Shown: positions 12,806-35,010 of the stretch, one piece after another
Layout: each line of letters starts with the position of its first letter
Numbering within the stretch: position 1 is the stretch's first letter
NCBI GenBank assembly: GCA_002731275.1
Contig: PCBK01000030.1
Coordinates: forward strand, 1 to 36,607
DNA length: 36,607 nt
Reading direction: 5' to 3'
Source: Deltaproteobacteria bacterium
Lineage (GTDB): Bacteria; Myxococcota_C; UBA6777
The notes under the pieces: generated by a model
Seen by the model: only the letters and a program-made list of their open reading frames with translations
Told to the model about the DNA's origin: nothing
Database searches by the model: none
Program-made: the position numbers and the translations under genes

Positions 12806-13330
12806 ATGAATCGTTTATTGAGTCTCTTTTTTGTTGGCGCGCTCTTCTTTTTCACAGCCTGTGATGCTGTCCCCGTTCGCTTTGACATCGACGTTGACGC
12901 GACAACAACAGTCGAAAAAGGAAGCATCCTCGACCAGCTCTCTTCCAACTTTGGATTCTCCAACTTCACGACGTTTGATGTTTCGAGTACACAAGAGTTC
13001 CAAAACAACAACACGCAAAAGAACCAGGTCGTCGACGCCAAGATCGCGAAGCTCACGCTCACAATTGTCTCACCCAGTGGGCAAAACTTCGACTTCCTCG
13101 ACAAACTCTCTTTCTACATCGAAGCTCCCGGCCTGGAGAAAAAACTCGTCGCGACGAAAGATTTTGCAAAGGGCCTGACGACTGTCGATATGGACATCAT
13201 CGATCTAGATCTTGCCCCATATATCAAGGCCGACAGCTTCTCGTTTACGACAGATGTCACAGGTCGCAGACCTGATGTTGAGACACAAATCAAGGCCTCA
13301 CTGAAACTCAACATCGGTGCCAAACTGTAA
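12806..13330 (+). CDS. Small lipoprotein, function unknown
   Basis: A 174-residue lipoprotein with lipobox FFTAC (Cys19). The mature protein is mostly beta-strand-like with alternating polar and hydrophobic residues and lacks further cysteines. An Asn/Gln-rich stretch lies near residues 69-74. The family is not recognised. AAAGG precedes ATG 12806. A long palindrome starts 12 bp after the stop, and the KaiC-like gene follows at 13520. Confidence 0.8.
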   Translation: MNRLLSLFFVGALFFFTACDAVPVRFDIDVDATTTVEKGSILDQLSSNFGFSNFTTFDVSSTQEFQNNNTQKNQVVDAKIAKLTLTIVSPSGQNFDFLDKLSFYIEAPGLEKKLVATKDFAKGLTTVDMDIIDLDLAPYIKADSFSFTTDVTGRRPDVETQIKASLKLNIGAKL

Positions 13331-13342
13331 CGATCAGTGCAG

Positions 13343-13376
13343 CTTGTTTCATGTTTCATGTTTCGCATGAAACAAG
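13343..13376. promoter_or_regulatory. Palindromic TTTCATG site A, candidate activator site
   Basis: CTTGTTTCATG (13343-13353) and CATGAAACAAG (13366-13376) are perfect 11-bp inverted arms around a 12-nt spacer that itself repeats TTTCATG. No T-run follows, so it is not a standard terminator despite lying just after a stop codon. The centre is about 104 bp upstream of a sigma-54-like element at 13462-13477, the usual position of an enhancer-binding-protein site. It shares the word CATGTTTCATGTTT with site B at 22267-22303. Confidence 0.6.
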
Positions 13377-13461
13377 GGCTATTCAGGTTGAAACTCACCA
13401 AGCTTCCGCCCTTTTTCTCCAAGACGACGTCCACACGAACCTTCCCCAAAATGATTCAATC

Positions 13462-13477
13462 TGGTATACATATTGCT
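13462..13477 (+). promoter_or_regulatory. Sigma-54-like promoter before the KaiC-like gene
   Basis: TGGTAT-ACATA-TTGCT matches TGGCAC-N5-TTGCW at 9 of 11 defined positions, keeping GG at -24 and GC at -12 with exact spacing. The start codon is 43 nt downstream. Alone such a match could be chance; its distance from palindrome A gives it weight. Confidence 0.5.
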
Positions 13478-13519
13478 TGATAAAGGCATGCATTGAACTT
13501 GCACAGACGGAGACTTTTG

Positions 13520-14995
13520 ATGCTCGAGCAGACATACCCCACACAAGCAGACAAATTGCCCACAGGCGTGACAGGACTCGATGAGATCCTGGGTGGTGGA
13601 CTGATACCAAATCACTCGTATCTGCTGCGTGGTGGTCCAGGGACAGGGAAAACGACAACAGCGCTTCACTTTCTCCAACAGGGATGTCGTCGGGGTGAGA
13701 GTGTCTCCTTTATCTCCTTGCACGAACCCCCCGAGAATATACAAAAGAACGCAGAGCGTTTTGGGTTTGTGTTGGAAAACATTCACTATCTCGATCTGAG
13801 TCCGTCAGCCGATCTGCTCTCCAAAAATGAAAGTTACACCATCTTCTCTGCTGCAGAGGTCGAAGGTGTCGACACAACCCAAAGAATCCTCGATCACATC
13901 GAAGAGTTTCAGCCTTCAAGGCTCGTGATCGATTCGCTCAGTCACTTGCGTTACCTGTCAGAGCGCCCTTTTCACTTTCGCCGCCAAGTCATCGCGCTAC
14001 AAAAGTGCTTGCGGCAAAAAGGGATCACTGTCCTCTTTCTCTCCGAATGCCTCGAAGGTTCCAACGAGGATATGGACATCCAACATCTAGTGGATGGTAT
14101 CATCCATCTCAAATCGACAGCACGCACGCGCTATATTCGCGTGAGCAAGTACAGAGGTTCGGGGTTTCGAGGTGGGTACCATCCCATGAGCATTACCCAA
14201 AAGGGTATCGAAGTCTATCGCAGACTCGAACCCAAAGCGCACCTCAAACAACCTGACTACAAGGCGATGAGTTCGGGCATCCCCTCTCTTGACGAGCTGC
14301 TTCATGGTGGAATTGAGCGAGGTACGATCTCGATTATTTCCGGTCCAACGGGCGTCGGAAAGACCACGTTGGGGGTACAATTCATGAAGGAAGCCGCTGG
14401 TCGTGGCGAGAACTCAGCGATCTACACCTTTGAAGAGCAGCCAGAGATCCTCCTACGTCGCTGCGAGGCGATGAATATACCAGTCCGCACCATGATCAAA
14501 AATGGCAATCTCTCTCTGGCACGTATCGAGCCGCTCGATGTGTACGCAGATCAATTTGCACAGAGAGTAAAAAAAGACATCGAAGATAAGGATGTCAAGA
14601 TTGTGATGATCGATAGCATCGCGGGATATCAGCTGTCCCTTCTTGGCGAAGACGAAGCGATGACCGCGACAGAGCACCTACACGCACTGTGTAAATACTT
14701 ACAAAATGTAGGCGTCACTGTCATACTGATCAACGAGATGGAGCACGTCATCGGCCGCTTCAAGGCGACCAGCTTAGGTGTCAGCTATCTCGCAGATAAC
14801 ATCGTGTTCTTGCAGTATACCGAGCAGAGAGGACAGCTCGAACGTGCGATCGGCATCCTCAAGAAACGACTGAGCAGTTTTGAACACAGCATTCATTCAT
14901 TTGAGCTCACTCAATATGGTCTCAAAGTGGGTGAGGAGATCACCCATATTCAAGGCATACTTTCAGGTACAGCAGAGATTATTGAGCCATCATAA
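13520..14995 (+). CDS. KaiC-like double-domain ATPase
   Basis: A 491-residue protein with two RecA/KaiC domains. The first has Walker A GGPGTGKTT (38-46) and the second GPTGVGKTT (275-283). KaiC uses a Glu-Glu pair for catalysis; the second domain keeps it (TFEEQPE, 305-306), but in the first it is His-Glu (SLHEPPE, 68-69). In the KaiC phosphorylation loop, T426/S431/T432 correspond here to Thr417, Ser422 and Tyr423 (KATSLGVSYLADN). Such proteins act as ATP-driven switches coupled to histidine-kinase or receiver partners; a true clock is unlikely because no kaiA or kaiB is seen. ATG 13520 has CGGAGA 8 nt upstream; an in-frame TTG at 13493 is less likely. The receiver-like gene follows after 58 bp, probably in the same operon. 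Confidence 0.9.
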   Translation: MLEQTYPTQADKLPTGVTGLDEILGGGLIPNHSYLLRGGPGTGKTTTALHFLQQGCRRGESVSFISLHEPPENIQKNAERFGFVLENIHYLDLSPSADLLSKNESYTIFSAAEVEGVDTTQRILDHIEEFQPSRLVIDSLSHLRYLSERPFHFRRQVIALQKCLRQKGITVLFLSECLEGSNEDMDIQHLVDGIIHLKSTARTRYIRVSKYRGSGFRGGYHPMSITQKGIEVYRRLEPKAHLKQPDYKAMSSGIPSLDELLHGGIERGTISIISGPTGVGKTTLGVQFMKEAAGRGENSAIYTFEEQPEILLRRCEAMNIPVRTMIKNGNLSLARIEPLDVYADQFAQRVKKDIEDKDVKIVMIDSIAGYQLSLLGEDEAMTATEHLHALCKYLQNVGVTVILINEMEHVIGRFKATSLGVSYLADNIVFLQYTEQRGQLERAIGILKKRLSSFEHSIHSFELTQYGLKVGEEITHIQGILSGTAEIIEPS

Positions 14996-15040
14996 GGTAG
15001 ATTTTCATTCTTGTCATGGCCAACGTTGATACCGACGTGC

Positions 15041-15047
15041 AAAGGAG
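15041..15047 (+). promoter_or_regulatory. Ribosome-binding site selecting TTG 15054
   Basis: AAAGGAG ends 6 nt before TTG 15054. The next in-frame ATG (15078) has no comparable site, so the TTG start is preferred. Confidence 0.7.
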
Positions 15048-15053
15048 AGTCCG

Positions 15054-15617
15054 TTGTCTTTCACCATACGCATACACATGGCACACGCCAAAAATGCAGC
15101 CCTCTTGGAGGGCGCGCTTCCTTCTGAATACAGCGTAATAAGGGCAACACATGCTTCTGCAGAAGACGCTCACTCATTTGATTTGTGTGTGTTGGATTAC
15201 AAGCAATTTTTGCAACTGTCTCCAATGCTCTTTGCCTGGAAATCAAAGACAGCCCCGCTCTTCTTGCCGTTTTTGTTGCTTTGCGAACAAAAAGAGTACC
15301 CTCATCTCTCACCACACGTTTGGGAAGTCGTCGACACTGTCGTCACAATGCCCGTCTCTAAGGCCGAATTGGTAGGAAGGATACGTATGCTCTTGCGCAC
15401 CAGACAGTCGTCCATTGAGTGCTCGCAACTCGCACAAGAGCTCGAAAAACATCCTCCAAGTGTGGAGCAAACAGTCTCAGATTCAAAAGATCTACTCGAA
15501 GAGATTCTAGAAATATCTCTTGAGCTGTCAGATATTCTCGCGCCAAACCTGCAAAAAAACGAGAAGAAGCTGTTGAACAAAATCATTGAACTGTCCAGTT
15601 TGGACGCACACTCCTAA
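15054..15617 (+). CDS. Degenerate receiver-like partner of the KaiC-like protein
   Basis: A 187-residue protein. Residues 1-115 follow the outline of a receiver domain (FDLCVLDYKQFLQLSP, LFLPFLLLCE, VVDTVVTMPVSKAELVGRIRMLLRTRQ) and resemble pseudo-receivers found beside KaiC-like and histidine-kinase genes. The usual acidic cluster after the first strand is missing. An Asp is present in CVLDY (about residue 50), so phosphorylation is doubtful rather than excluded. The C-terminal part (120-187) is helical and probably mediates association. It starts at TTG with a strong AAAGGAG and follows the KaiC-like gene by 58 bp, so the pair is probably co-expressed and may interact. Confidence 0.75.
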   Translation: MSFTIRIHMAHAKNAALLEGALPSEYSVIRATHASAEDAHSFDLCVLDYKQFLQLSPMLFAWKSKTAPLFLPFLLLCEQKEYPHLSPHVWEVVDTVVTMPVSKAELVGRIRMLLRTRQSSIECSQLAQELEKHPPSVEQTVSDSKDLLEEILEISLELSDILAPNLQKNEKKLLNKIIELSSLDAHS

Positions 15618-15717
15618 AGTCACAGGGCAGCCAAGCGAACATCTCTTTTCCGTATACTTTTTTCTTGCAGTAGCCTTATCTCACGAAAACACCACTCAGT
15701 GGTCCCTCTTTCGAGCG

Positions 15718-15742
15718 GTGTCCAACAGAATGGGTTGGACAC
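15718..15742. repeat. Perfect 9-bp inverted repeat between operons
   Basis: GTGTCCAAC (15718-15726) and GTTGGACAC (15734-15742) are exact inverted copies with a 7-nt spacer. The hairpin lies about 100 bp after the receiver-like gene and 155 bp before the MscS gene. No T-run follows on the plus strand. A smaller palindrome, ACCAC-TCA-GTGGT, lies at 15691-15703. Operator or weak terminator; undecided. Confidence 0.4.
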
Positions 15743-15897
15743 AACCCCCAACCCTACGAAAAAAAAACGAGACCTCAGTCTTCTATGCTGACTTTGCATA
15801 TGTGTTTGTAGATTTGAGTGATGCCATACAGACATCACAAGAGAACCGTGAAATCACGAAGCACATACACTGAAAAAACGACGCTGGAGCTTCATTT

Positions 15898-18801
15898 ATG
15901 CTATTAAAACGATATCTTTGTGCACTTCTATTTGTCATCACAACACAATGTGTATACCCAATGCAACCTGCACATGCACAAGCATCTCTGCTCAAAATGT
16001 TCCTCATGGACATGGGCAAAGGAGGCACCTTCCAGTCCGCGGAGCAGAAGAAACGCACAGCCTTGCAAGAACGACTCTCACAGCTGCGTGCTGAGAGCGA
16101 ATTGGAGTTGAAACAAAGAGCCTCCCTTGAACAATCTCTTCAACAGGAGATCCGTTACTATCGAAAACAAGCCTTGGGATATCGCACACAAGCCCGCCGG
16201 GCAAAGCACTCCACGAACAAACAACTTATGTACCACCGCTTGGGTCGTGTCGCCGACACATGTGTGGATCTATTGATGGGGTTACAAGTCGCGCGTAGCT
16301 CACGTGAGCAAAGTCGTAGAAAGTTACAAGGGGTCCTCGAGAGCTATCTCGAAACGCTCAACCAAATGAGGAAATTGCTACAAACACGTTATCCACCCTC
16401 GCAAATTATTTCACTGCGACAACACACCGACAAACTTCAAAAACAAAAGAAGACACTCGACTCGCAGGCCAAACAAGATGAACAGACTCTACAAAAGAGC
16501 AGAGAGAGCCTGGAGAAAGCGCAGAGAACATTTAGTACACTGCGTCGTGTCCTTATGCGCAACGAGCAAGGACAGACCACTTCTCGACCGACTTCACAGC
16601 CGACAAAACACCATCTGCTCGACTTTCGATATAAGATCCTGCAGTTCCACAAGGCGAGATTAAGGGTCAGGCTGTACGAATTACGGCATAAAGACGAAAA
16701 GTTGGAATTTGAGAGCTATCAACTTCAACAAGCACAACTACAAGATATGCTCAAAAAAATGCTCGCATGGTCCAAACGAATTTCCAGGCAAGCCGAAGGA
16801 GGTCTCCTCTACAGAAAGTGGCCAAAGTGGTTTGGCAATAGTGCGTATCAACCAAAGACGTCTCTTATCCAGGCGCTTGCGCTCAAGAAACAATCGAGTG
16901 GTCTGCAGCGAGCTAGCACCAAGTGGTCCGTTGGATTTTGGCTCATTATCATCGTCAGCTTGCTCGTGTCTTTGTTCTTTGTCGTCTGGTTTGTCTTCTT
17001 TTTGGGGCGACTACAAGGGCATGTCACTGATGAAGCGCCACCATGGATGCGCCCTCTACACTTCCTCCTCTATATTCTGAAAGGCACCCTTCCCTGGTTT
17101 TACGTCTGCTTAATCCTGACTGCGCTGCTGTTTCTCAGTCAATCATCGGCCAAACAGCGAGATGTGTGGCTGGGACTGCTCACCTGGATCTTGCTCATGC
17201 GAAGTCTCTGGTTAGCCATTGGCATGATGTTCTCAAAATCACAAAACGAGCGCATCTTTCAAGAGATCGCAGAGCATCGAGTCACGGTTTTCCGCCGAAC
17301 CCTTCGCGTGCTGGTGTTGCTTTGGTGTATTCCCTTTGCGCTTGTCCAACCCTTCGGTCAGAGCCCTGCCTTGTTGCCATACCCGATGTGGTTCTTCGGT
17401 GTACAATGGTTACTCACGCTCGTTCTCTGGGGCGTCTTGTGCATCAGAAAAGACGATCTTATCCAAATGCTTCCGCGAGAGAATACGCTCCAAAGGGTCT
17501 TGATTTTACTAATGTACTATCTTTACCCAATATTTGCGTTGTTGCCCTTTATCAGCTTTGGCTTGTACTGTGCGGGGTATCAAAATCTCTCACAATTCAT
17601 TCTATCCAACATCTTTTGGACCCTCGTGCTTTGGCTCACCATCGGCTGGGTTATGGAGTGTATTCAGGACTTCTTTGAGACATTACGTGGTGCGTCACAG
17701 GTCCAGGCTCCTCCGACACCAGAGCTTCCAGCTGCCGATGTCGATATCGACGAAAAGCACGCCGCCTCGACACCTGCTCCTACCATATTGGTCGAGAGTA
17801 GACTTCCGACACAGCTCAAGAGTTGGCTCACTTTTGTCAACACACTTCATTTACTGACCTATTTGTTGCTGTGGATCTCAGTGGTCGGTTTACTCTTGGA
17901 GATATGGGACGTACCGGGCGGCTTTTTGGCGTTGTGGTACATGATGCAAACATCTCTTTTCCAGGTACAAAATACGCACATCACGTTGTGGTCACTCGTG
18001 CGCATGTCCCTCACAGTAGGCATCGCGATCTGGCTGACAAGGTGGGCGCCCATCATCCTGGACAATACGATCTACGCGACCTTTGAGGTGAGTGAACCAG
18101 TCCAGTATGCGACAAATACACTCATCACCTATACATTTATCCTCGCCGGACTCTTGGTTGGGTTTCAGTGGATGGGTGTTGGACTCGGAGGTGTCTTCCT
18201 GGCACTCGGTATCATCGGATTGAGCATTGGCTTTGGGTTGAGGAATATCGCCAATCACTTCCTCTCCAGCCTGATTATCATCTACGGTCGCCCGTTTGTC
18301 GTTGGTGACTTCATTCAGGTTGGTCCATTAGAAGGACGTGTACGTGAAATCACAGCGCGCTCGACATTGATTGAGACTCCTAACAAACGTATTTTGATGA
18401 TTCCAAACGCGAACTTACTCAACGACAAGATCATCAACTGGACCAAAAAATATCCATACGTCCGAGCACGTGTCGACATTTATGTCTCTTACAAAAGTGA
18501 TATGGAGAAAGTTGAGAGTGTTCTCTCGGAGATCGCACAAGCGAACAAAGGTGTGCTCCCGACCCCCGGTCCCAAGGTCAGATTGCGAAACCTCGACACC
18601 AACCACATGCAATACGGACTGACGGTGAGTGTGTCAGATCCCATCGTGCGCTTTCGTATTCTCAGCGAGCTGCGTAAGGAAGCGGTGCGACGATTCGCCG
18701 AAGAAGGTATTGAGCTCGCGATGCCAGAACGCCGACTGCACATTGCCTCTGAAGACACCCTCCCCCTCGCAAAGGAAGCACCTCTCGTCATCGATGAGTA
18801 A
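15898..18801 (+). CDS. Large MscS-family mechanosensitive channel (MscK-like layout), copy 1
   Basis: A 967-residue protein. A signal peptide (1-27, ending PAHA) leads into a periplasmic coiled-coil region (about 40-330) with a Ser/Thr/Pro linker near 225. About ten membrane helices follow from residue 341. The last holds the MscS pore signature (GGVFLALGIIGLSIGFGL, then RNIANHFLSSLII), followed by the beta domain (GRPFVVGDFIQVG) and the cytosolic alpha/beta domain. Such channels open on membrane tension and release solutes during hypo-osmotic shock; large versions resemble MscK/MscM. TGGAG lies 8 nt before ATG 15898. It is paralogous to the protein at 22442-25432 but diverged. It converges with the sigma-54 activator gene, 20 bp away. 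Confidence 0.93.
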   Translation: MLLKRYLCALLFVITTQCVYPMQPAHAQASLLKMFLMDMGKGGTFQSAEQKKRTALQERLSQLRAESELELKQRASLEQSLQQEIRYYRKQALGYRTQARRAKHSTNKQLMYHRLGRVADTCVDLLMGLQVARSSREQSRRKLQGVLESYLETLNQMRKLLQTRYPPSQIISLRQHTDKLQKQKKTLDSQAKQDEQTLQKSRESLEKAQRTFSTLRRVLMRNEQGQTTSRPTSQPTKHHLLDFRYKILQFHKARLRVRLYELRHKDEKLEFESYQLQQAQLQDMLKKMLAWSKRISRQAEGGLLYRKWPKWFGNSAYQPKTSLIQALALKKQSSGLQRASTKWSVGFWLIIIVSLLVSLFFVVWFVFFLGRLQGHVTDEAPPWMRPLHFLLYILKGTLPWFYVCLILTALLFLSQSSAKQRDVWLGLLTWILLMRSLWLAIGMMFSKSQNERIFQEIAEHRVTVFRRTLRVLVLLWCIPFALVQPFGQSPALLPYPMWFFGVQWLLTLVLWGVLCIRKDDLIQMLPRENTLQRVLILLMYYLYPIFALLPFISFGLYCAGYQNLSQFILSNIFWTLVLWLTIGWVMECIQDFFETLRGASQVQAPPTPELPAADVDIDEKHAASTPAPTILVESRLPTQLKSWLTFVNTLHLLTYLLLWISVVGLLLEIWDVPGGFLALWYMMQTSLFQVQNTHITLWSLVRMSLTVGIAIWLTRWAPIILDNTIYATFEVSEPVQYATNTLITYTFILAGLLVGFQWMGVGLGGVFLALGIIGLSIGFGLRNIANHFLSSLIIIYGRPFVVGDFIQVGPLEGRVREITARSTLIETPNKRILMIPNANLLNDKIINWTKKYPYVRARVDIYVSYKSDMEKVESVLSEIAQANKGVLPTPGPKVRLRNLDTNHMQYGLTVSVSDPIVRFRILSELRKEAVRRFAEEGIELAMPERRLHIASEDTLPLAKEAPLVIDE

Positions 18802-18821
18802 GGCTGTCGGATGGAAAAAAG

Positions 18822-20336
18822 CTAAATCCCGTACCGCTTTCTCTTTCTCCAAAGTGTTGCGCGGCTCATGCCAAGGGTTTCGGCTGCTTGGCCGACATGA
18901 CCATGTGAGTCTTCCAGCGCGCTCCGGATCAACTCTTTCTCCTCTTCGCTTGTCCCCTTTGCCTTTGCTTTCTTTTTGCTCGCCTTTGGTTGGTAAAACA
19001 GATAATCGGGCAACGCATCCACCTTCAAGACAGTGTTCCTCCCCACAGCGAATGCATACTCCATCGTGTTCTTAAGCTCACGAATGTTGCCAGGCCACTT
19101 GTAACCGATGAGCGCGATCATCGCATCGGACTCGATCTCTTCGATATAATGACCGTGTCTTTCGTTGAAGTTTTGGACGAAGTGCCAGATCAGCAGTTCG
19201 ACATCTTCTTTGCGCTCTCTAAGTGGAGGTAACTCAATAGGCACAACACGCAATCGATACATCAAATCTTCGCGAAACTGCCCCTGCGCGACCTTGTCCT
19301 GCAAAGACTGAAAAGACGCGGAGACAATGCGAATATCAACTTTAATGGGAGTATTGGAACCGACAGGGATCACCTCTTTCTCTTCGAGAACACGCAGCAA
19401 CTTGGATTGAAGCGCCAGAGGAACTTCTGCGATCTCGTCGAGAAAAATCGTCCCCTTGTCAGCCTGCTGAAAGAGCCCAACTCGCTTGGCGACAGCTCCA
19501 GTGAAGGCACCTTTGACGTGGCCAAAGAGTTCACTCTCAAGCAATGTCGGACTGAGCGCGGCACAATTGATCGCTACAAACGGCTGTTTTGCACGCTCGC
19601 TGTTACGATGAATCGCCCGCGCGACCAACTCCTTCCCTGTCCCACTCTCCCCGTGAATCAAAACTGTAGCTTCGGTCTTCGCGATGTTCTCAATAATACG
19701 AAAGACCTTCTTCATTTTCGCGTCACGCGACAGCATCGCATCAAACGACTCAAACTGTGTATCTTCAAAAAGATGCTGAGGGAAGGTGTGGTTGGGCACC
19801 TGACGAGCTTGTGTCGGGGGGACCTCCACGACCTCTGCTTCTTGTGTAGAGAACACCTCTTGCGAAACTGTAACCTCATGAGAGCTTTCAGTTCGCTCCT
19901 GCTCGACGTGGTGTGCGATCAGACTGAGTGCTTCTTTGGCTTGCTCCACTTTGAGAGGACGATAGAGACACTCGATCCCACCCAAAAATTGTTGTTGTGC
20001 CCCATAAAACGCAACGCCTCGTGTATGAAACTCCATCGCTTGGCCACCCGCATGGTACAGCGAACGAGGGAATCTTTTCAGCGCCTTCTGCTCTTGCAAT
20101 GGGCACCCCATCATACACTCCATACAACGGATCACCTTCCGGCAATGAAACCCAACGGCGTCTTCGGGTGTGTACCCAAGAAGCTCTTGTGCATGCGTAT
20201 TCCAGAAAATAATGTTCTGTGAAGCGTCGACAACAAACAACGCAACGTCGGAGAAGAGCGGCTCAAGACCGACGAGTAAGTTTGTTATCCCGACTTCTTG
20301 TAACCACTCTTGGAACACCTCAGGGTGTGGAGTCAT
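18822..20336 (-). CDS. Sigma-54-dependent activator, PAS-AAA+-Fis
   Basis: A 504-residue enhancer-binding protein. An N-terminal PAS domain (about 20-130) contains a Cys cluster C65-x5-C71-x2-C74-x3-C78 ([11 protein letters not shown]), a pattern that could bind metal or sense redox state. After a linker, the AAA+ domain (200-425) has Walker A GESGTGKE (229-236), the sigma-54 loop GAFTGA (276-281), Walker B TIFLDEI (296-302) and the [18 protein letters not shown] segment. A Fis-type helix-turn-helix closes the protein ([20 protein letters not shown]). It has no receiver domain, so control is probably by ligand or redox at PAS. ATG 20336 has AAAGG upstream. It lies between the two operons that carry shared palindromes and sigma-54-like promoters, so it is the natural candidate regulator. 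Confidence 0.95.
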
Positions 20337-20718
20337 TGATCTACCTTTGTCACCATGCCCCTAGCCTTCGATGAAAATCGAGGTTGGAGCCAACACGACC
20401 TGTCCGAATCGTCAAGGAGGGTAACAAAAGGAGAAACGAGGCGCAAGGGAAAAGAGGTAAAGGCTACCGCAAGGAGAAAAGAGCTGAGGAAGAAGAAACC
20501 GCACAAAAGAGGTTGTTGCTGAAGCCTAAGTGGTCCTCTCGCGAAGTAAACGCACGAATATGATATTGCATTTTTTTCCGTAGGTTCGGGCCTTGTGTCC
20601 GACCTCGATGTTGTATGTCCTTTTCGCGAGAGGACCACTTAGGCCGTCGGGGGAGTTGTCTGGAGCGATTCAAACTTCAGGGGTTTTGGGAAAAAAGGAG
20701 TTAAAGAGCTACACTGTG
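20337..20718. other. Intergenic region containing an inverted-repeat element
   Basis: No gene is seen in these 382 bp. The region holds a perfect 22-bp inverted repeat (20524-20545 and 20623-20644) around 77 bp and must also carry the promoter of the sigma-54 activator, for which no clear box pair was found. Confidence 0.5.
20524..20644. repeat. 121-bp element with perfect 22-bp inverted ends
   Basis: The left arm 20524-20545 begins GCCTAAGTGGTCC and ends TCGCGAA; the right arm 20623-20644 is its exact reverse complement. The 77-bp interior contains a T7 run and no gene. The size and perfect termini fit a miniature inverted-repeat element or an invertible segment. No target-site duplication is visible next to the arms, and no second copy was noticed in the window. 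A long-stemmed RNA processing or terminator structure is an alternative. Confidence 0.6.
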
Positions 20719-21678
20719 TTATCGACGTCGGCGTCCACCAGAGGAGCGTCTTGTTCGGGTTTGACGAGTGCGCGTCCGATACGTTCGCTTGGGTTGCGTT
20801 TTGATACGTCGATTCCATCGATTATGACGAAAGTTACTGCGCAAGCCTCGTTGGTATCCACGTCGCCATCCTCTATAGTACCCTCGACGCCACCCACCGT
20901 TGTATGTGCGCCAATATCCTTTTCGATGATAATAACGCCCCTTCACACGTCGGAAAAAGTAGCCTCGCTTCCATCCCCAAGGACGATAGCGGGTGTAGTA
21001 TGCTCCCCTGTAGTAACGAGAATATCGGGGATACATGTTGTAGTAATAGACGCCTCTGTTGTAGAAGAATCCAGTACTCCAATAACTCGTGCCCCACCAA
21101 GAGAAGGTCACCCGCCAGTGCAAACCAGCCCAGACAGATGGATACAAAAAGAATCCCATAAACGCTGGTTCAGCAGCGGGAACGACATATACATAGGTTG
21201 GATCTCTGTAGTAGAACCCAGTCCCGTCGCGTAGACTATAGTGAAGCTGGCGGGTTTTACTATCGTAGGCCTGGCTCTGATCGAAGACAAACAACAGGAG
21301 GTCTTGGCCGTTTTGAAACCCTGCTGTGTGGTTCATATCGACGTATCCGTAAATTTTCAATCGACCATGGACGCGTTGTGCGTCGACTCTGACAGGTCGA
21401 CTCATCAACGTCGCAGGATCTGCCTGTGGATTTTGGTGACGCAAAGTTGCGAAGTAGATCGCGTTGACTTCATCTTCGAACCGCTTCATCCAACCACGAA
21501 AATCATTTTGGTTGGCCGCTTTTGTATCTATAAGAGCTTGCTCAACAGCCTGCAAGTCGATACGAGGAGGTGCGACCTGGACGGGGTTCAGTGTGTCCGT
21601 TGTTTGCGCAAAGGTTGAGGTCCCCCAAGCGCATCCCATCAAAATAAAAATCATCAACCAAATCGAACGTTTTTTCAT
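20719..21678 (-). CDS. Exported protein with Tyr/Arg-rich C-terminal half
   Basis: A 319-residue protein. The N-terminal signal can be read two ways: signal peptidase I after TSTFA, or a lipobox LMGC at Cys16. Residues 30-190 look like a folded domain (RLKIYGYVDMNHTAGFQNGQ, DLLLFVFDQSQAYDSKT, RDPTYVYVVPA). From about 200 on, the chain is low complexity and very rich in Tyr, Arg, Gly and Trp (YYNMYPRYSRYYRGAYY), ending in a strongly basic tail. The family is not recognised. The tail could bind polyanions such as LPS, capsule or DNA (inference). TTAGGAGAGAG precedes ATG 21678. It follows the gene at 21699-22124 by 20 bp on the same strand, probably co-transcribed. Confidence 0.8.
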   Translation of the reverse strand: MKKRSIWLMIFILMGCAWGTSTFAQTTDTLNPVQVAPPRIDLQAVEQALIDTKAANQNDFRGWMKRFEDEVNAIYFATLRHQNPQADPATLMSRPVRVDAQRVHGRLKIYGYVDMNHTAGFQNGQDLLLFVFDQSQAYDSKTRQLHYSLRDGTGFYYRDPTYVYVVPAAEPAFMGFFLYPSVWAGLHWRVTFSWWGTSYWSTGFFYNRGVYYYNMYPRYSRYYRGAYYTRYRPWGWKRGYFFRRVKGRYYHRKGYWRTYNGGWRRGYYRGWRRGYQRGLRSNFRHNRWNRRIKTQPKRTYRTRTRQTRTRRSSGGRRRR

Positions 21679-21698
21679 AGACTCTCTCCTAAATCAGC

Positions 21699-22124
21699 CT
21701 AGTCTTTTGGCTGTGGTTTTCCACGAAGCAATTGGAGGACCTCTTTTTGGGTCCCTAGCCCAAGCTTATTTTGGGCACGAAATGCAGCAACAGAGGCGAT
21801 ACGACACGCCTGCACGTCAAAAAAATCAAAGTCATCCACATCGAGCTGGAGACCGCTTCTAACTTTTGCGTACATCGTCGCGTATTGTGTCTTCTCTTCA
21901 ACACTCATCACATCGGTCCCTTCTTCACTCTCTCTATGAAAACGAGTGACCTCATGCTTGAGTGATTCGTCCGTACGAGGTGCAAAGCCACGGTCGACAT
22001 CACTGACAGCGACCGCAGACGCGATCGCCGCACGCGCGTCGAGACCTTCAAAGTGCTCATCTTGAAGATTTGCGCCACTCTGCACCAACGCAAAGACTCT
22101 ACGATATACAAGAATATCAGTCAT
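21699..22124 (-). CDS. Hypothetical acidic protein
   Basis: A 141-residue, soluble, acidic protein without signal peptide or membrane segment; the family is not recognised. Its sequence is helical with repeated Asp/Glu (DVDDFDFFDVQ). ATG 22124 is chosen because AAGGA lies 9 nt upstream; longer in-frame starts (GTG 22163, ATG 22133) have no site or one that overlaps. It is the first gene of a two-gene minus-strand unit with the Tyr/Arg-rich exported protein. A weak sigma-54-like element (22168-22183, minus strand) lies just upstream. Confidence 0.7.
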   Translation of the reverse strand: MTDILVYRRVFALVQSGANLQDEHFEGLDARAAIASAVAVSDVDRGFAPRTDESLKHEVTRFHRESEEGTDVMSVEEKTQYATMYAKVRSGLQLDVDDFDFFDVQACRIASVAAFRAQNKLGLGTQKEVLQLLRGKPQPKD

Positions 22125-22167
22125 CAAACACATCCTTTCGTTTGTCGTTTGTGTTGTCCCCACTCTC

Positions 22168-22183
22168 TACAAAACTTATGCCA
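22168..22183 (-). promoter_or_regulatory. Weak sigma-54-like element before the 22124 operon
   Basis: On the minus strand, TGGCAT-AAGTT-TTGTA matches TGGCAC-N5-TTGCW at 9 of 11 positions but has GT instead of GC at -12. Its GG is about 103 bp from the centre of palindrome B, mirroring the plus-strand promoter at 22383-22398. Start codon 44 nt downstream. Confidence 0.35.
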
Positions 22184-22266
22184 AAAGGACCATAACTTTT
22201 TTCCCTTTTTAAATCAAGTACCCCCATCTTCTTAAAGCACCAAACGCGTTTCAATGTGACTGCTTA

Positions 22267-22303
22267 CATGTTTCATGTTTGTATCCCTGAAACATGAAAC
22301 ATG
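22267..22303. promoter_or_regulatory. Palindromic TTTCATG site B, candidate activator site
   Basis: CATGTTTCATGTTT (22267-22280) and AAACATGAAACATG (22290-22303) are perfect 14-bp inverted arms around 9 nt. The centre (22285) is 99 bp upstream of the GG of a sigma-54-like promoter on the plus strand and about 103 bp from a weaker one on the minus strand. The half-site TGTTTCATG is shared with site A (13343-13376). Confidence 0.65.
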
Positions 22304-22382
22304 CAACGACCAATCATCCCCAGTAGAACAGTGGAAAGGCCATGTGTCGAGAGAATCAGGAATCTCTGTGGACTTGAAATGT

Positions 22383-22398
22383 TGGCACATCATGTGCA
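22383..22398 (+). promoter_or_regulatory. Sigma-54 promoter before mscS2-corA
   Basis: TGGCAC-ATCAT-GTGCA matches TGGCAC-N5-TTGCW at 10 of 11 defined positions, with exact GG/GC spacing. Transcription would start near 22410, which leaves a 30-nt leader before TTG 22442 with its Shine-Dalgarno. Confidence 0.6.
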
Positions 22399-22441: not shown

Positions 22442-25432
22442 TTGCTTACGTTACCTTTGCTATCAGACAGTCCCAACAAGAAAAGAACATCCTCACTCAG
22501 ACTCATCGCCTGCTTGTATATCACGTTGTTGACGCTCATGATGTTTGCCCAACCTGTCGCAGCCCAAGATATTTTAGGTACGTTGACAGGAGGCAACTCC
22601 AACAAGTCGAGTTTTCATATCTCGACACCATCGCAACGCATCGTCAAATCACTAAACCAACGACTCAAAGTTGTCGATAAACAGCTCGAAGAAGCGCACA
22701 AGCAAGAAGCACAACTCGACAAACGGATACAACGAGACCGCAAACATCTCGAGCAGCTCTCCAAAAAGCTCAAGCACACTTCGTTGCGGCACCTCTTCCA
22801 ACTCTTTTACACACGCAAACAACAATATCTCCTCGGTATGGGCAGACTGCAAGTTGCGATGTTATCGCACATCCAAAACATCAAGATCTTGCACGCACAG
22901 ATCAAGCAGCGCGCTTCAATGAGAACCAAGACGGACACTTGGTTGCAGGAAAAATACAAGTCAGCCAAAGACCCAAAAGCCCTTGATCTGGATGTCCAGA
23001 CACTCCAAAGCGCGATCAAAAAAGAAACCGAAGAGCGAAACATACTCTCAAAAAGTATCAAGCAATTTGAGACATCACTAGAACGCTCAAGAGAAACCTT
23101 AGACAAAACAAAAAGAAAACTTCTGAAGCTTGCACCTGTCGATCCAGAATCTCCAAAACCCTCGACTCTTCCATCGACAAAACCATCCGTCAAACAACGA
23201 AATGAGCTGCAGCGTGTCAAACAAAAGTGGATCCAATTGTACTGGCAAGAAGAGATACTTCGCTTAACATACCTCTACCACCAACTTCAGTTTGATTGGT
23301 TTACGCTGCGAAAAAAAGACCAACAAGTCGAATTCAATACACTCGACCATCGCATCAAGATGCGAACCTTTATCCTCAACGAGATCAAGCGACAACGAAA
23401 AACGTTGCTGTCTCACACACGAGAAGGATTGCTCTTTTTTCGTCCTCACCTCTTTGCTCCCGAGCAATGGAAGCAATTCCGAACACACTTTGAAAAGACG
23501 CTCAAAACTTCCACTCCACACTTTCAAGTCCTGCGAATCCAGGTCCGCGACCATCTCAAAAAGACCAAGGGAGGTGTCGTCTTGCAGTGGGTGTTGTTTA
23601 GCCTCTTCTTGCTGCTCGTCGTGTACTTTGTGGTCTCATTCATCCGAAGACGCTTGAAAGCAGCGATCATACGGCTCGCAGAGCGAAAGGAAGCAGGTAA
23701 CGTCACGCACCGGTTCTGGCACGCGATGCTATTGGCCTTACGTAGCCTCCGGAAAGTGACCCCATATGTGGGTGGTATTTTGTTGCTGTGGGTTGCGTTG
23801 TACTACGTCCCGCTCCCTGTTGTGTGGGAAGATCTATTCCTGCTCTTGTGTATCTCATTGGTCGCGTTTGTCCTGTACTCAGCGTTGATAGGTCAACTTT
23901 TCTCTCCCATCGAAGCTGAACGGTATTTGCAAAACATCGATAAAGAAGGCGCACGTCGTTTTCGCATCGTGTTCCTCGTCATAGGTGCGCTCTCAGCGCT
24001 CTACTTTTGGGGCACACAGTGGCTCAGTCAGCTTGGCTTCCCCAACTTTTCTCTACGCTATCTCAACCTGATCTTCTACGGAATTGTTGTCATCGGGTGT
24101 TTGTTACTGCTCCTCAACAAAGACACCATGTTGACGTTGATCCCCTCTGATACACAACTGGGACGGACAGTGATCGTCTTTGTCTACCGCGTGTATAACT
24201 GGATCTTCCTGTTTATTTTGGGATTATACGGTTTGTACGTCTGGGGATATGTCAACCTGGCATCGTACATCGCCCGCGGGTTGGTCTTGAGCCTCATACT
24301 TATATCGACGATTGTCGCGCTCGCGAGGCTGGCCTGGACGTTGAACTTGTGGACATTTGGCTTTGTCAAAGGAGAAGGCGGCCTGATCCAGGTCGAGAAG
24401 AAGTGGGCGAGAAACCTCCTGCGTATGACACAAGCCTCTATGGTCGCCTTGTTGAGTCTGTTTGGATTCAGCGTATTGCTCGAAATATGGGGGATCGCAA
24501 ATGGTTTTTGGACCCTCTTTCAGCTTCCTCTGATCCCCTTTGTTCAGGTCCAGGATACACAGATTAACCTGCTCTCCCTGCTCAAGTTTGTCCTCTCTGT
24601 TGGGGTCGCATTTTTCCTCTCACATTTCATCCGCAAACGCCTTACAAGTCTTGTCTACCCAGCTCTTCGACTGTCTGCGTCCAATCAGCACGCGGCCAAC
24701 ACAATCATCGTGTATCTCATCATCACGGTGGGGATTTTGGTCGGTCTTCAGTGGATGGGGGTTGGGATCGGTGTCCTCGCAGTCTTTGCAGGTATCGTCG
24801 GTATCGGGATCGGTTTTGGACTCCAAAACATTATGAGTAACTTTATCTCGGGGTTGATCATCACCTTTGGCCAACCTTTCAAGGTCGGAGACCTTATCGA
24901 GGTCGGTGGCATCATGGGTGAGGTCTTGGAGATCAGTATTCGCAGTACAACAGTCGAGACATACGACTACCGGATTGTCCTGGTACCCAACTCCGAAATT
25001 CTCACCACAAAACTGATCAACTGGAGTATGGGCAAACCCTATGTCTGTGTGCCGATGGAGGTCGGTGTCGCGTACGGAAGTGACGTCGCGCTTGTGAAAA
25101 AGCTTCTGCTTGAAATCGCGGATGCTCACCCAGACGTACTCAAAACGCCTTCACCAGATGTAAGGTTTCAAGAGTTTGGGAGTGACTCATTACTCTTCCG
25201 CGTCTGGGTCAATGTCAACGATCCAATGGCTCGTTTCAAGGTCATCAGTGAGCTGCGCTTCAAAACCGATGAAGTGTTTGCCAAGCATGATGTCGTCATC
25301 GCGTTCCCACAAAGAGATATCCACCTCAACCCTGCACTCGAAGAAGCTGCTGTACGCTCACTTCAAGCCTGGTCTACACGTCCAGAGCCTGCACAAACAA
25401 CCGAGCCAAAGACCAAAGGAGACCCCTCATGA
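22442..25432 (+). CDS. Large MscS-family mechanosensitive channel, copy 2
   Basis: A 996-residue protein from TTG 22442. The signal peptide has a basic n-region (NKKRTSSLR), a hydrophobic core and a cleavage site after PVAA. A periplasmic coiled coil (about 55-370) has a Pro/Ser/Thr linker (PKPSTLPSTKPS). About ten membrane helices start near residue 378. The pore helix and beta domain read GVLAVFAGIVGIGIGFGLQN and FGQPFKVGDLIEVGG, followed by the cytosolic domain. The MscS core fits the canonical pattern more closely than copy 1 (channel opening on membrane tension). The frame is open from 22301, but the promoter, Shine-Dalgarno and signal peptide all favour 22442. Its stop overlaps the corA start (ATGA), so the two are translationally coupled. 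Confidence 0.93.
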   Translation: MLTLPLLSDSPNKKRTSSLRLIACLYITLLTLMMFAQPVAAQDILGTLTGGNSNKSSFHISTPSQRIVKSLNQRLKVVDKQLEEAHKQEAQLDKRIQRDRKHLEQLSKKLKHTSLRHLFQLFYTRKQQYLLGMGRLQVAMLSHIQNIKILHAQIKQRASMRTKTDTWLQEKYKSAKDPKALDLDVQTLQSAIKKETEERNILSKSIKQFETSLERSRETLDKTKRKLLKLAPVDPESPKPSTLPSTKPSVKQRNELQRVKQKWIQLYWQEEILRLTYLYHQLQFDWFTLRKKDQQVEFNTLDHRIKMRTFILNEIKRQRKTLLSHTREGLLFFRPHLFAPEQWKQFRTHFEKTLKTSTPHFQVLRIQVRDHLKKTKGGVVLQWVLFSLFLLLVVYFVVSFIRRRLKAAIIRLAERKEAGNVTHRFWHAMLLALRSLRKVTPYVGGILLLWVALYYVPLPVVWEDLFLLLCISLVAFVLYSALIGQLFSPIEAERYLQNIDKEGARRFRIVFLVIGALSALYFWGTQWLSQLGFPNFSLRYLNLIFYGIVVIGCLLLLLNKDTMLTLIPSDTQLGRTVIVFVYRVYNWIFLFILGLYGLYVWGYVNLASYIARGLVLSLILISTIVALARLAWTLNLWTFGFVKGEGGLIQVEKKWARNLLRMTQASMVALLSLFGFSVLLEIWGIANGFWTLFQLPLIPFVQVQDTQINLLSLLKFVLSVGVAFFLSHFIRKRLTSLVYPALRLSASNQHAANTIIVYLIITVGILVGLQWMGVGIGVLAVFAGIVGIGIGFGLQNIMSNFISGLIITFGQPFKVGDLIEVGGIMGEVLEISIRSTTVETYDYRIVLVPNSEILTTKLINWSMGKPYVCVPMEVGVAYGSDVALVKKLLLEIADAHPDVLKTPSPDVRFQEFGSDSLLFRVWVNVNDPMARFKVISELRFKTDEVFAKHDVVIAFPQRDIHLNPALEEAAVRSLQAWSTRPEPAQTTEPKTKGDPS

Positions 25433-26418
25433 GCACACAAGTTCGCTGGCACATCTACAACGCTGAGAACGTCGAACACCACACATTCGAGCAAGCTCCA
25501 GAGCAGTGGCCGGAGATCCAAAAAGGACGCGTCCTTTGGCTTGACGTCGTGGGACTCAACGCAGAGATGATGAAGCAGCTCAAAGAGCAATACTCCATCC
25601 ACCATCTCATCGCCGAGGACATGCTCAACACTCGACAGCGACCAAAATTCGAACGATATGAAAGTTCGGAGTTTATCACGATCAAGATGCTCCAAAAAGA
25701 ACGAGACTCGTCCTTTGAAGAGCACGAACAATTGAGTATCTTTTTCCGAGAAGGTCTCGTCCTCACTGTTCAGGAAAAACCTGGGGATGTCTTCGCCTCC
25801 GTTCGTGAACGCATCGAAGAAAACAAAGGACGCATTCGAAAACGCGAAGAAGATTACCTCGTCTACGCACTGCTCGACTGTGTCATCGATGAATACCTCC
25901 AGTTTGCCGACATCCTTGAGAACCGCTCGGAACAACTCGAAGCGAACTTGCTCCGAGATGAAGACAACGACATCAAGACCTGCTATGCGTTTCGCAACGA
26001 GCTCCACAGATTCAAGAGGATGTCACGCGCAACCATCGACATGCTCAAGCGCTTGATGGAACATATCCAAGAAGATGAGCACACACGCTTTCAAGGGACC
26101 ACCAAGGTCTACCTGCGCGATGTTCATGATCATGCGATGTCCTTTTCACAAAACATCGAAGAGTTGCAAGAACAGTGCAACAGCTTGATCGAGCTGTACT
26201 ACGCTCAAATCAACGATGGTATGGGACGTGTCATGAAGGTTCTCGCGGTCATCTCCACGATCTTCCTCCCCCTCAACCTGCTCGCAGCCGTCTACGGCAT
26301 GAACTTCACGCACATGCCCGAACTCAAGTACAAGTGGGGATACTATATACTCCTCGGAACAATGGGCTTTATCGTGGCAAGTATGCTCTCGTTATTCAAG
26401 TACAAAAAGTGGTTCTAG
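25429..26418 (+). CDS. corA: CorA-family divalent cation transporter
   Basis: A 329-residue protein. A soluble N-terminal domain and long stalk helix (to about 265) lead to two C-terminal membrane helices. The first ends in the signature YGMNF (289-293), followed by a short loop (THMPELKYKW) and the last helix ending KKWF. CorA pentamers carry Mg2+ (and Co2+/Ni2+) across the inner membrane. The length is typical. The start ATG overlaps the stop of the MscS gene as ATGA, so synthesis is coupled, and both would be driven by the sigma-54 promoter at 22383. This links ion balance to osmotic-tension release (inference). Confidence 0.94.
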   Translation: MSTQVRWHIYNAENVEHHTFEQAPEQWPEIQKGRVLWLDVVGLNAEMMKQLKEQYSIHHLIAEDMLNTRQRPKFERYESSEFITIKMLQKERDSSFEEHEQLSIFFREGLVLTVQEKPGDVFASVRERIEENKGRIRKREEDYLVYALLDCVIDEYLQFADILENRSEQLEANLLRDEDNDIKTCYAFRNELHRFKRMSRATIDMLKRLMEHIQEDEHTRFQGTTKVYLRDVHDHAMSFSQNIEELQEQCNSLIELYYAQINDGMGRVMKVLAVISTIFLPLNLLAAVYGMNFTHMPELKYKWGYYILLGTMGFIVASMLSLFKYKKWF

Positions 26419-33410: not shown

Positions 33411-33636
33411 GTCAACAACCTCCCCCTAAAGGGAGAGGCTTGAGAGAGTCTCTATGTTGACCAGCCTGAGCGAGAATACTCGAAAGGAGGATTTCAAACT
33501 ACGTTAGGAGCGAATACATAGGCACCCCTGGATGCTTCTCCAGTCCTGGGCACTGCGGCATGTCGTTAAATGTTTTTTGGAGGTCGAAACTGTGCGACCT
33601 GCATCAAAACCGCTCCATAACATTGGCGAGGAGACC
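33411..33636 (+). ncRNA. Putative omega RNA (HEARO-type) of the IscB element
   Basis: IscB nucleases use a guide RNA encoded directly upstream (omega RNA, earlier described as HEARO). Here the leader shows nested stems: GTCAAC (33411-33416) pairs with GTTGAC (33456-33461) and encloses a hairpin CCTC-C-CCC/GGG-A-GAGG (33419-33438, loop TAAA). CTGGA/TCCAG (33528-33543) lies inside CCC/GGG (33525-33550). AGGTCG/CGACCT (33581-33600) has an 8-nt loop. The guide would lie immediately 5' of the scaffold, around 33395-33410. The exact ends are inferred, and covariation was not checked. Confidence 0.6.
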
Positions 33637-35010
33637 ATGACTGGAGAACTCCCCAAAGGACGACTCCCAGAACGCGAGGTAACTCGATTGAAAAAAAATA
33701 CCCAACAAGCCCAAAACAGAGTCCTTGTCCTCGACAAAAACAAACAGCCTCTGATGCCCTGCCATCCGGCCAGAGCTAGAGAACTCATGCGAAAAGGCCG
33801 TGCTGCTGTCTATCGCAGATTTCCCTTCACCATCATTCTCAAAGACCGTGAGGGTGGCCAGACACAGCCTGCCGCCCTCAAGTTCGATCCTGGCTCCAAA
33901 AAGACGGGGATTGCTGTCGTCGCAGACTTTCAACGTGGAAAACGTTGCATTTTCGCTGCTGAACTCGAGCATCGCGGAGAACAGATCAAAAAAGCGCTTG
34001 AAAAGCGAAGAAACATCCGTCGTTCCCGTAGAGGTCGAAAGACCCGCTACCGAAAAGCACGCTTCGAGAACCGACGAAGACCCCAGGGATGGTTGGCCCC
34101 CTCACTGCAAAGTCGAGTGGATAACATCGCGTCCTGGACACAGAAGTTTCGGGCATTGGTACCCATCTCAGGTCTTTCGGTTGAGAACGTCCGTTTTGAT
34201 ACACACAAGCTGGTCAATCCCGAAGTCGAAGGCATCGAATATCAACAGGGAACGCTCTTTGGTTACGAGGTCAAAGAGTATCTGCTCGATAAATGGGGCA
34301 GAAAGTGTGCATACTGTGGAAAACAGAATGTGCCTCTGCAGGTAGAACACATGACACCCAAAAGTAGGGGAGGCTCCAACAGGGTCGACAATCTGACATT
34401 GGCCTGTGAGAAGTGCAATCAAAAGAAGAGCAATCAAACAGCCGAAGAATTTGGGTTTCCGGAGCTTCGCCAAAAGGCCGACAAGCCCTTGAGGTCGGCA
34501 GCTGTCGTGAATTCGACTCGGCCTGCGATTCTTCGTAGACTCGAAAGCACAGGTCTTTTGGTGGAGACAGGCAGCGGCGGGCAGACGAAGTTCAACCGAA
34601 GCCAACAAGGATACGCGAAAGAACATTGGCTTGATGCAATGTGTATCGGTGATAGCGGAAGACAGGTTTTTGTAGAAACACAGCACGAAGTGTTGGAAAT
34701 CAAAGCGATGGGAAGGGGCAGTCGGCAGATGTGTCGAGTTGATCGTTTTGGATTTCCGAGGACCGGAGCAAAAAAGAAGCAAAAGCGAGTGGGTGGGTTC
34801 CAGACAGGAGACATTGTAAAAGCGGTGGTGACGAAGGGAAAGAAGCAAGGAAGTTACGAAGGTAGAGTGGCAGTCCGAAGTAGCGGAAATTTCAACATCA
34901 AAGGGCGAAAACAAACGACACAAGGAATTGCAGCAAAATATTGTAAAACATTACAAAAAATAGATGGATACACTTACAACAGAAGGACGGGCGTTTCCTC
35001 CCCCCTCTGA
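33637..35010 (+). CDS. iscB: IscB RNA-guided nuclease (RuvC-HNH, Cas9 ancestor family)
   Basis: A 457-residue protein from ATG 33637. All IscB parts are visible. The PLMP domain is NKQPLMPCHPARARELMRKG (35-54). RuvC-I has Asp84 in KFDPGSKKTG. An Arg-rich bridge helix spans 123-140. RuvC-II has Glu183 in LSVENVRF. The HNH domain has CAYCG, His238 in LQVEHMTPKSRGGS, Asn252 and CNQKK. RuvC-III has His330/Asp333 in HWLDAMC. Every catalytic residue is kept, so it is probably an active RNA-guided DNA nickase/nuclease. The frame runs on upstream to 33532, but that part overlaps the putative omega RNA; ATG 33637 has GAGGAG just before it (spacing short), and a TTG at 33688 is an alternative. The last codons lie in the right-end hairpin. 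Confidence 0.95.
   Translation: MTGELPKGRLPEREVTRLKKNTQQAQNRVLVLDKNKQPLMPCHPARARELMRKGRAAVYRRFPFTIILKDREGGQTQPAALKFDPGSKKTGIAVVADFQRGKRCIFAAELEHRGEQIKKALEKRRNIRRSRRGRKTRYRKARFENRRRPQGWLAPSLQSRVDNIASWTQKFRALVPISGLSVENVRFDTHKLVNPEVEGIEYQQGTLFGYEVKEYLLDKWGRKCAYCGKQNVPLQVEHMTPKSRGGSNRVDNLTLACEKCNQKKSNQTAEEFGFPELRQKADKPLRSAAVVNSTRPAILRRLESTGLLVETGSGGQTKFNRSQQGYAKEHWLDAMCIGDSGRQVFVETQHEVLEIKAMGRGSRQMCRVDRFGFPRTGAKKKQKRVGGFQTGDIVKAVVTKGKKQGSYEGRVAVRSSGNFNIKGRKQTTQGIAAKYCKTLQKIDGYTYNRRTGVSSPL

Follow-up and report, generated by a model that had tools for sequence, protein, structure and literature searches.

The 36,607-nt contig PCBK01000030.1 of a deltaproteobacterium (assembly GCA_002731275.1; Myxococcota_C, UBA6777), referred to below as the window, carries two palindromes, A and B, on either side of a gene for a sigma-54 enhancer-binding protein (EBP; 18822-20336). 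It is highly probable, from the sequence and its comparison with related genomes, that A and B are upstream activating sequences (UASs, or enhancers) for this EBP, which would open the neighbouring promoters from them. The system is very probably a real and newly described local sigma-54 regulon, of which the mechanism is already known. An original prediction, made from the letters of the window, had proposed such a regulon. It is supported and was largely right, given the rarity of the strict palindrome, the geometry of the sites relative to sigma-54-like elements and the recurrence of the arrangement in G003, a genome of another genus of the same family (the source genome, of 10.75 Mb, is referred to as G000).

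Both palindromes are exact, as originally claimed (Table 1). B is located between divergent units and constitutes the longest close inverted repeat of the window. Each site contains the heptamer CATGTTT in tandem, so that the half-site TGTTTCA(TG) is present three or four times per site, in part imperfectly; A has an additional tandem TGTTTCATG at 13352. The 14-mer previously noticed in both is real, three of its four genomic copies lying at A and B and the fourth on contig C110, with no match for the reversed-pattern control. For the strict palindrome, TGTTTCATG-N0-20-CATGAAACA, A and B are the sole matches in the genome (reversed control 0). The spacers between TGT and ACA are N17 and N24 in A and N13, N20 and N27 in B, outside the 10-12 bp of the classical TGT-N10-12-ACA operator. 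The operator unit is TGTTTCA/TGAAACA with variable spacing, which adjusts the earlier account. A triple tandem GAAACAT array was also observed upstream of an SDR gene (L004, G000:C110:5931-5950), with no good sigma-54 element oriented the same way; this C110 site may or may not belong to the regulon, its sole element scoring 12.0 at about 108-112 bp on the opposite strand.

The -24/-12 elements were searched by comparing all 17-mers of either strand of the window with YTGGCACRNNNNTTGCW, under author-set weights that favour GG and GC (scores up to 15.5). The single top element of the window (22384+, 14.5) is the one facing mscS2, and the element before the KaiC-like gene (13463+, 13.5) shares the second rank with 4202+ and 8855+, both distant from the palindromes. 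The 13463+ and 22384+ elements have GG and GC at -24 and -12, separated by 10 bp, and are close to the sigma-54 promoter consensus TGGCAC-N5-TTGCW. From the palindrome centre to the first G of the GG, the distance is 103.5 bp (outer pair) or 100 bp (inner pair) at A and about 99-102 bp on the plus strand at B, close to the 104 and 99 bp originally given. The distance of the weaker promoter proposed on the opposite strand, before the 22124-20719 unit, stands as well (99.5-103 bp). The ATG of the KaiC-like gene at 13520 and the TTG of mscS2 at 22442, the latter just after AGGAG, are about 31 and 35 nt past the predicted transcription starts. The chance that two random positions both have an element of at least 13.5 at 85-110 bp is about 8e-6. 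Just past the window, a strong element, CTGGTACGAGGTTTGCT (14.5; L043:2883, G000:C35:38882, plus strand), has no upstream TGTTTCA and is perhaps the target of another EBP.

The association was also found at the genome scale with a relaxed palindrome, TGTTTCA-N4-30-TGAAACA, looser than the form first noted. It has 10 matches in G000 and 11 in G003 (reversed control, 3 and 3), three further genomes of the family being at control level. In G003, 4 of the 11 have an element of at least 13 at 90-98 bp, for 0.07 expected (P 5.7e-7 over the 85-110 bp range), and the 80-150 bp range of the original prediction again gives 4 of 11 (P 2.9e-5); one of the G003 matches (L081) is inside an open frame. In G000, elements of at least 13 are found at 85-110 bp for three of nine palindromes (P 2.2e-5, the discovery sites included), the third pair belonging to a different EBP locus, on contig C29. 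Among the 13 elements of at least 13 within 600 bp of a palindrome, eight are at 90-119 bp in the correct orientation. As for the UASs of EBPs, these inverted repeats are thus located above chance at a regular distance upstream of -24/-12 elements, so that the genome-wide check originally suggested gives the strict form only at A and B and, in G000 and G003, a relaxed form tied to elements about 90-103 bp away. In G001, G002 and G004, no palindrome is accompanied by an element of at least 12.5 at 80-150 bp, consistent with chance. A composite search for a half-site with a -24/-12 pattern gave a modest excess over the reversed control, confined to G000 (12 vs 5) and G003 (16 vs 5), many matches being single half-sites with poor elements. 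A palindrome of G016 (L018) was discarded as an instance of the regulon: it has no strong element, and its locus encodes another NtrC-like EBP and not the A/B cluster.

The genome encodes one RpoN (PF04552, E 1.9e-63, on C138) and 39 strong Sigma54_activat domains. As expected of a bacterial EBP, the 18822-20336 product combines a Sigma54_activat AAA+ domain (PF00158, E 1.2e-70) and a C-terminal Fis-type helix-turn-helix (HTH; PF02954, E 8.4e-14), and its Walker motifs and GAFTGA are intact, which confirms the originally proposed presence of an EBP between the sites. A 21-residue stretch is invariant across four aligned orthologues, as are four cysteines of the PAS region (C65, C71, C74 and C78, C-x5-C-x2-C-x3-C). 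The latter suggest that the PAS domain senses redox state or a metal, with an Fe-S, haem or zinc site as possible forms of the motif.

G003 was found through its palindrome and its EBP and not through its promoters. Its EBP orthologue (46.7% along the entire protein, helix SRPTLWRKRKKY) is surrounded by just nine TGTTTCA/TGAAACA words in 28 kb, six of them in three groups upstream of strong elements. In the first group, a TGTTTCA...TGAAACA pair lies 90.5 bp before the 13.5 element (14877-) found in front of the gene orthologous to that of the exported basic protein. In the second, a palindrome lies 92 bp before a 15.0 element (17532+) preceding a same-strand series, apparently an operon, of ATP-grasp, PP2C-cNMP, mscS2 and corA genes. 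The third group consists of tandem half-sites about 75 bp before a 14.5 element. Another element (L044:17495, minus strand, 14.5) lies 37 bp from 17532+, on the opposite strand, and faces the palindrome. G003 also has a single GTTTCATG-N0-22-CATGAAAC match, 97.5 bp from a 14.5 element, TTGGCACAAACTTCGCT, preceding a threonine-synthase-like gene (named from its translated start). The comparison with relatives proposed at the outset therefore recovers the EBP, the basic protein and mscS2-corA in one neighbourhood, and the regulon membership first proposed is supported for the last two, while the KaiC branch is confined to the source genome. Because the geometry of about 100 bp recurs beside the same activator gene in another genus, A and B are very probably activator docking sites.

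In the proposed mechanism, the EBP would bind as a dimer or oligomer to TGTTTCA/TGAAACA half-sites located some 100 bp upstream from the -24 element. With the DNA looped, its GAFTGA loop would contact the RNA polymerase-sigma-54 complex, and ATP hydrolysis would serve to open the promoters of kaiC(-mscS1) and mscS2-corA and, more weakly, that of the divergent unit that includes the exported basic protein. We infer from these data the binding of the EBP to A and B, the sigma-54 requirement of the promoters and the setting of EBP activity by the Cys-rich PAS domain.

Several observations weigh against this reading. The KaiC-like gene has no orthologue in four genomes of the family, making footprinting of site A impossible; the evidence for this site thus comes from its own sequence and position. 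Near the more distant EBP orthologues of G002 and G004 (42%, with an identical helix), such palindromes are absent, and the neighbouring genes differ (penicillin amidase, oxidoreductase). The spacing between half-sites is inconstant, and the minus-strand element at 22182, weak at 12.5, has GT in place of GC at -12. Moreover, the sigma-54 weights are our own and the 85-110 bp range was chosen after the distances had been seen. In favour of the reading, on the other hand, the mscS2 homologues of G002 and G004, and paralogues from the same search, have no upstream pair of sigma-54 element and half-site; judged from the fetched loci, they do not adjoin such an EBP (L130 of G001, at a contig edge, was left out). 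In this set, the 13.0 element of L136 is accompanied by a single half-site, at a distance of just about 23 bp. Two Myxococcota metagenome-assembled genomes have homologues of the basic protein with no EBP nearby, and these are likewise devoid of sigma-54 element and half-sites.

The half-site is not confined to a single EBP, because the EBP of contig C29 (L077:1676-3844, minus strand, in G000) has a related helix, SRTTLWRK, and TGTTTCA sites of its own: its locus carries two TGTTTCA-N4-TGAAACA palindromes (TGT/ACA spacer N12), with a 14.5 element 99.5 bp away. This protein has an N-terminal Rieske [2Fe-2S] domain and a GAF domain, the Rieske fusion being possibly unusual, with genes for an SDR and for queuosine synthesis (PF02547) diverging from its own. 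TGTTTCA sites and a sigma-54 element likewise adjoin other EBPs of similar helix (TLWRK/TFWRK), and an EBP of G002 and G004 with the helix SRTTFWRKRRKY has TGAAAC/GTTTCA copies that precede a 13.0 element. The EBP subfamily with the helix SR[ATP]T[LF]WRK thus appears to read TGTTTCA, with the spacing giving specificity. The link of the half-site with EBP and sigma-54 elements, as first read, stands, but TGTTTCA is common to other EBPs of the family. The loci L100 (G002:C105:6224-6332) and L101 (G004:C252) show an EBP with the helix SRTTFWRKRRKYGL and TGAAAC/GTTTCA copies adjoining a 13.0 sigma-54 element. In a genome with 39 strong EBPs, a different one, such as the Rieske-GAF protein, could bind A and B in trans as sigma-54 UASs. 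This is unlikely, considering that A and B flank the 18822-20336 gene and that the genome has no other copy of their strict form, that the syntenic G003 orthologue is likewise surrounded by such sites, and that the C29 sites differ in spacing and are devoid of the CATG extension.

Perfect palindromes with a 7-bp tandem half-site would also fit dimeric repressors, and A and B could be the operators of an ordinary repressor or activator on sigma-70 promoters, with coincidental -24/-12 matches. This is very improbable, as neither palindrome region has a sigma-70-type (-35/-10) promoter match, the elements situated some 90-103 bp away in two genera are far more frequent than by chance, and a distance of 100 bp would be odd for a repressor. 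RNA hairpins, terminators or mRNA structures are considered just as improbable: the arms of A and B would pair as stems if transcribed, and A begins 13 nt past the stop codon at 13330, but no T-tract and no terminator match was found in either region, and the conserved feature is the half-site, in tandem at some G003 sites, and not the hairpin. Moreover B, lying upstream of both its predicted promoters between divergent units, is outside the transcripts that these would give. A small repeat of the heptamer, mobile or arisen by slippage and with no regulatory role, would account for the tandem copies and for the third array on C110 without a good sigma-54 element, but is the least credible option given the single other 14-mer copy in 10.75 Mb, the geometry and the synteny in G003.

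Taking A and B as enhancers of the 18822-20336 EBP, we tentatively propose, as a possibility that is itself rather doubtful, that a sigma-54 activator sensing redox state or a metal by its Cys4-PAS domain commands a regulon of the cell envelope, made up of mechanosensitive channels, CorA, a KaiC-like ATPase and an exported polycationic protein. If true, control of membrane tension and of ions would be tied, in a Myxococcota-like lineage, to a chemical signal from the cytoplasm.

Table 1. Sites, predicted promoters and genes around the two palindromes (positions in the window)
Feature	Position	Strand	Remarks
Site A, palindromic UAS (predicted)	13343..13376		CTTGTTTCATG (13343-13353), 12 nt, CATGAAACAAG (13366-13376); exact
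Predicted sigma-54 promoter CTGGTATACATATTGCT	13461..13477	+	score 13.5/15.5; GG 100-104 bp from A centre
KaiC-like double-RecA-domain ATPase	13520..14995	+	first gene after A
187-aa protein without Pfam family	15054..15617	+	homologue (38.5%) adjoins EBP orthologue in G003
MscS1, large MscK-like mechanosensitive channel	15898..18801	+	
Sigma-54 EBP, putative binder of A and B	18822..20336	-	Cys4 PAS, AAA+ with GAFTGA, lid, HTH_8
Exported Tyr/Arg-rich basic protein	20719..21678	-	G003 orthologue 52.5%, also with palindrome and sigma-54 element upstream
141-aa protein without Pfam family	21699..22124	-	first gene of minus-strand unit
Weak predicted sigma-54 promoter TTGGCATAAGTTTTGTA	22168..22184	-	score 12.5; -12 GT, not GC
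Site B, palindromic UAS (predicted)	22267..22303		CATGTTTCATGTTT (22267-22280), 9 nt, AAACATGAAACATG (22290-22303); exact
Predicted sigma-54 promoter TTGGCACATCATGTGCA	22382..22398	+	score 14.5/15.5, best of the window; GG about 100 bp from B centre
MscS2, large MscK-like channel with signal peptide	22442..25432	+	TTG start, AGGAG before
CorA Mg2+/Co2+ transporter	25429..26418	+	overlaps mscS2; pair kept in G003

Within the unit downstream of A, mscS1 is possibly on one transcript with the KaiC-like gene. On the minus strand, a gap of 382 bp with a strong inverted repeat separates the basic-protein gene (20719) from the EBP gene (about 270 bp in G003), and for this reason the EBP gene may or may not be co-transcribed from 22182. 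Between these two genes, a perfect 22-bp inverted repeat (20524-20545 and 20623-20644) flanks 77 nt and includes a 34-nt element, GGTCGGACACAAGGCCCGAACCTACGGAAAAAAA, with further copies at 15733-15766, before mscS1, and two on C110 (L048 3665-3760); this element looks like a dispersed repeat family. Further downstream in the window, an IscB RNA-guided endonuclease gene (33411-35010, plus strand; NCBIfam guided_IscB, 440 bits for a cut-off of 175) is overlapped by a HEARO/omega RNA (Rfam RF02033, 120 bits).

In the open-licence literature, we found no paper naming a TGTTTCA operator with EBPs, this EBP family or sigma-54 control of an mscS-corA pair. The present analysis, which used only sequence and met the arrangement again in a second genus, assigns an operator and targets to one of the dozens of orphan EBPs of this large genome. 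It turns the sigma-54 control of MscK-like channels and CorA into a testable prediction, and the TGTTTCA half-site of SR[ATP]T[LF]WRK helices could help decode more EBPs of the group.

Compared with known proteins, the AAA+ and HTH domains of the EBP fit the models of the PrpR, NifA and PrdR types, from which it differs by its N-terminal Cys-containing PAS domain. Its top NCBIfam match is PrdR (E 1.6e-107; PrpR, E 2.2e-92), with scores far under the curated equivalog cut-offs (360 vs 795 bits for PrdR, 310 vs 499 for PrpR). Similarly, the product of 13520..14995 scores 169.6 bits for circ_KaiC, under the 546-bit cut-off, and by this measure is KaiC-like only and not the circadian clock KaiC of cyanobacteria. 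Among large mechanosensitive channels of the MscK/MscM type, both MscS1 and MscS2 match MscK best, with scores far under the equivalog cut-offs, and their sigma-54 regulation would be a new point. In Planctomycetia, the predicted sigma-54 targets are enriched in MscS genes (COG0668; PMC12316311); this is a statistical enrichment in another phylum, and we found no EBP or UAS named there. The closest likeness in organisation is with the EBP-linked local sigma-54 regulons of Clostridiales, in which most UASs are at 100-250 bp, TGT/ACA operator spacers are 10-12 bp and targets are mostly co-localised with the EBP gene (PMC6615313). Both have EBPs with a Fis-type HTH, inverted TGT...ACA operators, UASs upstream of TTGGCAT-N5-TTGCT and targets adjoining the EBP gene. 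Conversely, A and B differ from the Clostridiales operators by their TGTTTCA(TG) half-sites, their longer and variable spacing (TGT-N13 to N27-ACA) and their tandem copies, and the regulon by its cargo and lineage.

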